A stretch of DNA of 36,474 bases, taken from contig JABMQR010000019.1 in the NCBI GenBank assembly GCA_013202335.1, forward strand, positions 1 through 36,474, given 5' to 3'. The DNA comes from Bacteroidota bacterium (GTDB lineage: Bacteria; Spirochaetota; Spirochaetia; JABMQR01). The notes under the pieces were generated by a model. It was not told the DNA's origin. It searched no databases and saw only the letters and a program-made list of their open reading frames with translations. This document shows positions 3,007-36,474 of the stretch, piece by piece; position 1 is the stretch's first letter; each line of letters starts with the position of its first letter. Made by a program: the position numbers and the translations under genes.

Positions 3007-3112
3007 GAAGTTTTTGGAGTTCGTTAGTTGTCACAAAATAGTGATTACCTTAATTCACTCCAAAAACTTCAAAAGGTAATTTTAAGAATCTTTGATTTTT
3101 AAAATTACCTCA
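3007..3112 (-). repeat. two-hairpin intergenic element, copy A
   Basis: Read on the minus strand: TGAGG then TAATTTTAA (3112-3099), a 13-base loop, TTAAAATTACCT (3085-3074; a perfect 12-bp stem), TTT, then GAAGTTTTTGGAGT (3070-3057), a 36-base loop, and ACTCCAAAAACTTC (3020-3007; a perfect 14-bp stem). The order and edge sequences are shared with copies B, C and D. It lies between two plus-strand genes, so on its own strand it is not the leader of either. Confidence 0.75.
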
Positions 3113-12225: not shown

Positions 12226-12845
12226 ATGAAGAGGCTTATAAAGCGAAAAGTGGTCTATGTCCAGCAAAAACTGCACTATCAGAGCATTTAGCGGATTAAC
12301 GATCTGTATCAGACTTCGTTCTTACCCTGTAACCCATATTTATTTGAGAATACTATATATATTTTAGGATTTATATCGTGAGAAATAGCCATTTCACGAA
12401 CTGGCAGCACCCAGATATCTCGGGGAAAATCTACTGGGGTATATTGGTGTGAGATAATGACGACGTTCGTCAACTTTTCACAGATTTTATCGTTTCAGTT
12501 TGTTGAAAAGGACTAGAATCTCTTTTGTCAGTTTATCAATAAAGCCATAGATTTTATGTGCCATATGAAAATTTCCGAAAATAGATAGAAAAAAACTTTA
12601 TCTGCAAGCAGTGATTTACTGGATTGTTGGAAATATAATCAAAAACATGCTGCAGATATTCATTGGTATCAACAATAGAACTTTTGCAGATTTGCTCGGG
12701 CGGTCACATGATAAACTGCATCTGATTGTAACTTTCTTGGATGTCTCATATGTATCCTACATAAAATTATCTCAGAAAAATTCAATTTTTCTGAAACAAA
12801 ATTAATTATTTATATTTGCAATGTCATAATCATTTCTTAGTAAGG

Positions 12846-12894
12846 TATCCTCCGTCCCCAAACAAATGGTAAGTATCCTCCGTCCCCAAACAAA
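12846..12894 (-). repeat. two direct copies of the GGGGACGGAGGA motif, minus orientation
   Basis: TATCCTCCGTCCCCAAACAA occurs at 12846-12865 and again at 12874-12893, period 28 bases. On the minus strand each reads TTTGGGGACGGAGGATA. It is inverted relative to the copy at 12214-12225. Confidence 0.7.
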
Positions 12895-12985: not shown

Positions 12986-13135
12986 TGAGGCAATTGTAAA
13001 AATCTAATGAACAGGAGGCAAAAGTACTTGCCTTTTTTTATTTTGTTCCGATTTTTGACAATTGGCCTTTTGAAGTTTTCGATTATTTTTTATGTTAATA
13101 TGTATTTCACATAGTATATGTAAATAAAAAACTTC
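12986..13135 (+). repeat. two-hairpin intergenic element, copy C
   Basis: TGAGG-CAATTGTAAAAATC (12986-13004) pairs with GATTTTTGACAATTGGCCT (13050-13068) with small bulges. TTT follows, then GAAGTTTTCG (13072-13081) pairs through GAAGTTTT with AAAACTTC (13128-13135) over an AT-rich loop. Inside the first hairpin sits a terminator-like stem. It lies 87 bases before gatC on the same strand, so it could be in the gatCAB leader. Confidence 0.7.
13016..13039 (+). terminator. intrinsic-terminator-like hairpin within element C
   Basis: AGGCAA, loop AAGTAC, TTGCCT, followed directly by a run of T to 13039. No plus-strand gene lies close upstream, so if used it would act on transcripts entering gatCAB (attenuation) or on a short RNA from the element itself. 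Its core is shared with the tandem repeats at 11.0-11.1 kb. Confidence 0.5.
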
Positions 13136-13222
13136 TGACTAATAGGTTGATATTTTTATAATTAAAATTTTAGAAATATCTTTTAGTATTGCAGTTATTT
13201 TCCAAACACAGGTGTATCACGT

Positions 13223-20895: not shown

Positions 20896-21241
20896 GAATG
20901 GTATTGTACGAAAAAATCCACAATATGCATAGGACTCTTGAGATTATTTCAACAATCTACGGAACAGTAGGTAATAGTAACTGTCTGGAATAATTTAGTT
21001 TCACCCATTGTGACAAATCAAATTTCTATAGAATTGATAGTGAAAATACGGTATAGTGAGATGAGGTAGTTTCAATAATCGTAGAAATTCTGGCTAATAG
21101 GTTAGTACTTTGCAAAATTAAAGAAAGTTTACAGCTTTATTCTTTTTATTATTGAAAGTTCCTCAGTTGATTGCCAAAAATCAGAATAAATAAGTGAATA
21201 ATTTTTTTGTTTTATGATCATCTGTTATTGGGGGCTGTATT
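20896..21241. promoter_or_regulatory. divergent control region between GNAT/loaP and the pel genes
   Basis: No gene. It must hold the promoter for pelEFG and for the GNAT gene. A TATAGT at 21052-21057 is a possible -10 with no good -35. The strongest structure is the inverted repeat at 21062-21165, described separately. TTCTATAGAA near 21026-21035 is a small palindrome. Confidence 0.4.
21062..21165 (+). promoter_or_regulatory. long inverted repeat in the putative pel leader
   Basis: TGAGGTAGTTTCAATAAT (21062-21079) can pair with ATTATTGAAAGTTCCTCA (21148-21165), 16 of 18 positions, over a 68-base AT-rich loop. It ends 76 bases before pelE. It could be a leader RNA structure or a protein-binding inverted repeat. 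Its TGAGG edge recalls elements A-D, but the GAAGTTTT second hairpin is absent. Confidence 0.5.
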
Positions 21242-31959: not shown

Positions 31960-32090
31960 TGAGGCAATTCTAATAATTGAAAGAACAAAACTACATTTGA
32001 TTCTGCTTTATTTAGAACTACCTTTTGAAGTTTTCGATTTGAGAACATATAAATATATATAGTATATAGATTTATACAACCGAAAACTTC
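31960..32090 (+). repeat. two-hairpin intergenic element, copy B
   Basis: TGAGG-CAATTCTA (31960-31972) pairs imperfectly with TAGAACTACCT (32013-32023). TTT follows, then GAAGTTTTCG (32027-32036), a 44-base AT-rich loop containing ATAGTATAT, and CGAAAACTTC (32081-32090; a perfect 10-bp stem). It lies between two minus-strand genes, in the plus orientation. ATAGTATAT is also in the loop of copy C. Confidence 0.72.
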
Positions 32091-36379: not shown

Positions 36380-36474
36380 TGAGGATCTTTCAAAATTAGG
36401 AAATTTTGAAAGATCTACCTATTAGTGAAGTTTTTGATGGTTTGTAATTACTTTAGATACAATAAGATAAACCA
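36380..36474 (+). repeat. two-hairpin intergenic element, copy D (cut by window end)
   Basis: TGAGG then ATCTTTCAAAATT (36385-36397), loop AGGA, AATTTTGAAAGAT (36402-36414), CTACCT, ATTAGT, then GAAGTTTTTG (36427-36436). The first hairpin is perfect over 14 bp (GATC to GATC). The return arm of the second hairpin, if present, lies beyond the window. The first hairpin could also end transcription of the PfkB gene. Confidence 0.65.

Follow-up and report, generated by a model that had tools for sequence, protein, structure and literature searches.

The window analyzed here, a stretch of 36,474 nucleotides, comes from the chromosome of an uncultured spirochaete. The AspS protein that it encodes is 92% identical to that of Spirochaetia bacterium BS150m-G37, a Black Sea Spirochaetia MAG available as a 2.0 Mb draft (hereafter G001), which is the genome closest to the window, and approximately 10.5 kb around the window AspS gene is syntenic with G001 at 81-85%. 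Searches by the family and by the order of G001 returned the same four draft genomes, G001, G004, G005 and G006, which form the comparison set used throughout.

Copies of the element in the window

The preliminary description had recognized four intergenic copies, A to D, sharing a plan of two hairpins. These copies are present where it had placed them, with the sequences that it reported; however, the underlying unit has three hairpins, and copy D shows this unit in inverted order, being its right end (Table 1). Copies A and B are left parts of the three-hairpin unit from which the third hairpin is missing, while C is a full but altered unit that carries a large insertion in its first hairpin and keeps the third. 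Copy D presents the third hairpin followed by the second and matches six places in G001 with 78-84% identity over 74-90 bp. The window ends inside copy D, presumably at a typical short-read contig break within a repeat. A probable fifth copy, the decayed E, contains an internal CTAATAGGT that is also found in C and D.

Table 1. Copies of the element in the window; R1 and R2 are the covariance models described below
Feature	Position	Strand	Parts present	Evidence
Copy A	3007..3111	-	first hairpin 3074-3110, second hairpin 3007-3070; right end and third hairpin absent	inverted repeats, folding; training member of R1 and R2
Copy B	31961..32090	+	first hairpin 31962-32023 with enlarged loop, second 32027-32090; right end absent	R2 E-value 0.033, B outside R2 training
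Copy C	12987..13183	+	first hairpin 12988-13068, second 13072-13135, third 13149-13180	R2 E-value 2e-05, C outside R2 training
Copy D	36381..36474	-	third hairpin 36384-36415, link, part of second 36427-36474; cut by window end	R1 E-value 0.072, D outside R1 training but in R2 training
Copy E (probable, decayed)	21063..21164	+	outer ends GAGG...CCTC, CTAATAGGT inside, hairpins lost	arms 18 nt, 89% complementary

The 13-mer CTTTTGAAGTTTT occurs exactly three times in the window, in A, B and C, against an expectation of 0.01, and none of 100 shuffles reached this count; with two mismatches it has four places, a number attained by 28 of 100 shuffles and hence at chance level. Folded as single-stranded DNA, A and B depart from shuffled sequences with z-scores of -6.0 and -5.5, respectively. 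A screen for inverted repeats detected two in A (17 and 14 nt), a perfect one of 14 nt in D and one of 13 nt in B. The earlier statement that pairing in the first stem is mostly kept applies to A and D but not to the other two: B has two outer pairs as A-C mismatches and the stem of C is interrupted by the large insertion.

Two further features adjoin these copies. A pair of tandem copies of GTAAG(G)TATCCTCCGTCCCCAAACAAA lies just before copy C (12842-12894), and the segment 2953-3009, next to copy A, is a dispersed repeat in its own right, being 89% identical over 57 bp to a place in G001 (C194:3037-3093).

Architecture, short forms and subfamilies

The complete unit, as seen in the relatives, is about 155 bp long and comprises three hairpins between the outer ends GAG...CTC. 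In complete G001 copies the order is GAG, first hairpin, CTTTT, second hairpin, link, third hairpin and CTC, the central (second) hairpin GAAGTTT...AAACTTC being mostly 64 nt long. Just inside these ends is a terminal motif, approximately GAGSMNNTTNCAAAA, which reads inward from both ends, is common to both ends and to the subfamilies, and is carried by each outer hairpin in its outer arm. Two shorter forms are also complete: a two-hairpin form of about 73 bp, which is without the central hairpin, and a one-hairpin form of 38-41 bp, in which the two outer arms are joined. Complete forms thus span 38-160 bp and have no coding capacity, which places them within the size of MITEs (<500 bp).

Three subfamilies can be distinguished: alpha, with AT-rich hairpins and found mostly in G001; beta, the type of the window; and gamma, found in G005 and G006. 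The third hairpin of gamma, GCTCTTGC-TTTTT-GCAAGAGC, has a stem wholly different from that of beta at the same place, the outer GAG being conserved. The copies in the window belong to subfamily beta and are old and mostly truncated. The suggestion that the copies do not reflect recent copying therefore stands for these four but not for the family, since G001 holds copies with identities of 95-99%.

Abundance and distribution

The pattern GAGSHAATTTCAAAAT, which runs inward from both ends and constitutes the terminal inverted repeat expected of a MITE, was counted against its reversed form in each genome. With up to two mismatches it has 198 places in G001 (98 forward, 100 reverse) versus 9 for the reversed pattern; with up to one mismatch the corresponding counts are 104 versus 0 in G005, 28 versus 0 in G006 and 14 versus 1 in G004. 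All four genomes of the comparison set contain the family. Querying G001 with a single relative of the window copies gave 38 matches, and the same query gave none in two more distant spirochaete genomes.

Neither 72,556 plasmid records nor 50,697 phage records contained the family. When IMG/VR was scanned with four exact patterns, two matched the same single contig and two matched none. This 8.7-kb contig (IMGVR_UViG_3300001336_001014) carries a gamma-type element without the third hairpin (L319:5681-5799), which sits between a repressor-like gene, its role assigned by reading only, and a gene on the opposite strand. Carriage of the element by a phage is therefore possible, the viral status of the contig being its IMG/VR label.

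Target duplications and insertion differences

We collected 56 complete insertions with whole-element patterns that are blind to the flanks but have some letters fixed inside and at the ends; counts of the triplets at the outer (GAG) and inner (AAG or GTC) positions are for that reason given no weight. Identical 4-bp flanks, i.e. a target duplication, are found in 39 of the 56, compared to a mean of 1.7 and a maximum of 8 in 5000 rounds of shuffled flanks; the flanks match at three or four positions in 51 insertions, and an exact duplication is absent in 17. All forms bear exact duplications: 18 of 26 three-hairpin, 12 of 13 two-hairpin and 9 of 17 one-hairpin insertions. Four of the 13 two-hairpin copies lie within one larger duplicated repeat, leaving about 53 independent insertions; this further repeat, of at least 185 bp, encloses the two-hairpin element in G005 (L240, L242, L248, L256). 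The duplicated target sequences vary and are AT-rich. A looser detection that yielded 93 candidates was set aside: 77 of them were under 60 bp and gave only 12 exact duplications, as most of these were hairpins internal to longer copies.

In the window, A, B and D are without a target duplication because one end of each is missing. Comparison of sites with G001 nevertheless reveals that copy B is absent there: the left flank is shared up to AAAT, whereupon GAGG and the rest are missing, although B, having lost its right end, offers no clean junction on that side. This insertion polymorphism and the dispersed multiple copies, along with the target duplications, are features of MITEs. At the site of copy A, G001 has a weak trace of the second hairpin (41 bp, 78%, E-value 0.003) beside an alpha element, and copy A may be ancestral at its site. 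Nor is the site of copy C a clean empty site in the relative, where L001 carries TTGAGG as well.

Base pairing and covariance models

To evaluate pairing in the family at large, we used 22 distinct first hairpins, with copy A as the sole member from the window. Changes on both sides of a pair are seen at 6 of 17 pairs, and 17 of 374 cells are compensated as against 4.1 in shuffles, none of 500 of which was as high, in controls that leave relatedness in. The same set has 18 unpaired cells and two wobble (U-G) cells. The columns of 66 distinct hairpins (18 first, 32 second and 16 third) comprise 600 Watson-Crick pairs, 2 of G-U type, 5 of A-C type and 35 other mismatches; on neither strand is G-U commoner than A-C, although the numbers are small. 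RNA stems are usually rich in G-U pairs, with a strand bias, while in a DNA palindrome template switching can correct one arm against the other, which gives rise to compensatory changes without any RNA function. In the first hairpin, compensatory changes account for part of the retained pairing and G-U pairs are nearly absent, which is what palindromes in DNA would be expected to show. The proposal of selection on structure is only partly upheld: compensatory changes are present, but the unpaired cells (18) are about as numerous as the doubly changed ones (17), and compensation within a DNA palindrome can do without RNA function.

Two covariance models, of the kind suggested at the outset, were built. 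Model R1 describes the first hairpin, whereas R2 took the third hairpin alone as structure and is therefore close to a sequence model. Copy C, with the E-value given in Table 1, was found by R2. R1 finds A strongly, A being in its training set, but it is weak on D, on B (E-value 0.23), on C (0.26) and on E (4.8; 0.3 with R2, also weak), and among 12 loci it has matches in L001 only and is silent in the other 11. Rfam models gave no match over the element, either in the window or in five element-bearing loci.

A probable mobile DNA element and its alternatives

Taken together, these repeats are very probably copies of a tiny, non-coding mobile DNA element, a MITE, that is common in a group of uncultured spirochaetes. 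The family is new and unusual in being built as a chain of hairpins; it has the MITE features that we tested and lacks those of REPs. Thus, one half of the initial suggestion of a MITE or REP-like element is upheld, by the inverted repeats, the target duplications, the roughly 200 motifs in 2.0 Mb and the absence of B from G001.

There is only a very slim chance that the stems are instead selected on a transcript, as a cis-regulatory or small RNA. The excess of compensated cells and the wholly different third-hairpin stems of beta and gamma at the same place are what such a structured RNA could display; however, the former was counted against shuffles that do not remove relatedness, and exact 4-bp duplications, a species-specific insertion, the near-absence of wobble (2 of 374 cells) and the lack of an Rfam match all speak against it. 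Moreover, at 26 tandem sites the copies are 9 sense versus 17 antisense. A transcription terminator, mobile or selected, is if anything less probable still. Many copies do lie a few tens of bases behind the 3' end of a gene, and copy C holds a terminator-like GC hairpin followed by a T run, nested in its first hairpin (13010-13046). Yet, by crude gene calls, convergent genes flank only 5 of the 40 classified copies and divergent genes 9 (all gaps of at least 60 bp in the same loci are 5 convergent, 17 divergent and 42 tandem), the alpha hairpins are AT-rich, and 9 of the 56 copies are inside an ORF of at least 100 aa, with 7 left unclassified. Copies occur in both orientations.

A REP or REPIN moved by a RAYT tyrosine transposase (IS200/IS605-like) merits as little credence as a terminator. 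The IS200/IS605 mechanism is not known to make target duplications, whereas 4-bp duplications are present here. As in REPINs, at least in the available text of their description (PMC3116915), the units are short, palindromic and extragenic, with a high copy number, single and double forms and compensatory changes. However, REPINs are tied to RAYTs, while the Y1 domain (PF01797) has no match in the drafts G001 and G006, although G001 is the richest in copies; the matches in G005 (5) and G004 (2) are without facing family ends among the places listed. The hairpin base also lacks the GTAG or CGTC tag named in the title of PMC3733652, and there is GAG at both ends instead.

Returning to the MITE, its movement can be envisaged as follows. 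A DDE transposase encoded elsewhere would bind the terminal motif and cut at GAG, and the cut element would be joined to a target opened with a 4-bp stagger. The hairpins might be maintained at the DNA level, either by template-switch correction of palindromes or by being favoured by the transposase or the insertion process. The short forms would be deletion products, formed either between the TTTCAAAAT stretches that recur in both outer hairpins or around the central one, and some of them at least would afterwards be mobile on their own. For instance, the 38-bp form corresponds to a fusion, at the repeated AATTTCAAAAT, of the outer arm of the first hairpin with the third hairpin, a product that deletion in place would give. 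Two identical 38-bp copies in G005 (L158, L161) share a derived base and have no similarity beyond the 38 bp; this one pair suggests that the 38-bp form can move.

It is conceivable, though unlikely, that movement requires a DNA hairpin at each end, i.e. that the folded palindrome (as a cruciform or single strand) is recognized rather than a duplex end. A 38-bp hairpin, which has no room for ordinary end pairing, would then still be mobilizable. Such recognition would fit the L158/L161 pair and the replacement of the third stem next to an unchanged outer GAG; it would be simpler, however, to suppose that longer insertions were shortened by independent deletions.

Relationship to known repeats

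Like the bacterial MITEs Correia/NEMIS, ERIC, RUP, QMITE1/2 and Chunjie, the spirochaete MITE is small, non-coding and AT-rich, with inverted ends, target duplications, a high copy number and a mostly intergenic location. It differs from them in that both ends form separate closed hairpins with another one between them, and in that complete one- and two-hairpin forms bear target duplications. According to the portions available of the respective papers, QMITE1 copies range from 39 to 400 bp and come with REP-like remnants (PMC10969869), and most families in PMC2229807 pair end to end and have a terminal TA. The CIR elements of Caulobacter are comparable in having two separate stem-loops and a linker, for which they are called unlike other repeats, but are listed without a terminal inverted repeat and with a GANTC motif (both from the accessible text of PMC2229807). 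In Borrelia, compensatory changes in intergenic repeats are read as RNA structure, in what is available of PMC2674063. Searches of listings of open-access papers brought up no description of such a MITE in Spirochaetia.

In the present family, conserved intergenic hairpins with compensatory changes are explained as mobile DNA. Palindromic MITEs can thus imitate structured RNAs, which is a warning for covariation-based RNA discovery, and inexpensive tests separate the two: near-absent G-U pairs, strand symmetry and target duplications. With a one-, two- and three-hairpin series that bears target duplications, the question of the smallest mobile unit of bacterial DNA becomes testable.

Candidate partner transposases

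A transposase of the IS1182/ISNCY/IS5 kind is a tentative candidate for the partner of the element. In G004, the 16-nt ends of a decayed ISNCY/IS5-type element (L185/L205) are perfect and, with the sequence GAGCCTGTCCCAAAAG, resemble the family end motif. However, its transposase is below the curated cut-offs and its flanks are without a matching 4-bp duplication; ends resembling those of the family on a transposase element are seen in G004 only, in this decayed form. In the part available of PMC3281130, ISPse1 of the related IS1182 family is tabled with a value of 4, read here as the direct repeat, and IS1272 of the same family is reported to replace stem-loops (PMC5678879, likewise from a partial text). 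Among the places listed in the four draft genomes, none of the matches to NF033551 (5) and NF033593 (3) is flanked by family ends, and NF033593 has no match in G001, G005 and G006. PF01609 has 14 matches in the four drafts, and the 12 whose locus was inspected show no facing pair of family ends among the places listed.

Three short ORFs of 137-176 aa (L201:1486-2013, L202:418-861 and L203:1474-1884) match the N-terminal part only of the IS1182 transposase model. Those in G001 and G004 adjoin the same gene, radical-SAM-like by our reading, and these short ORFs are possibly a retained DNA-binding remnant.
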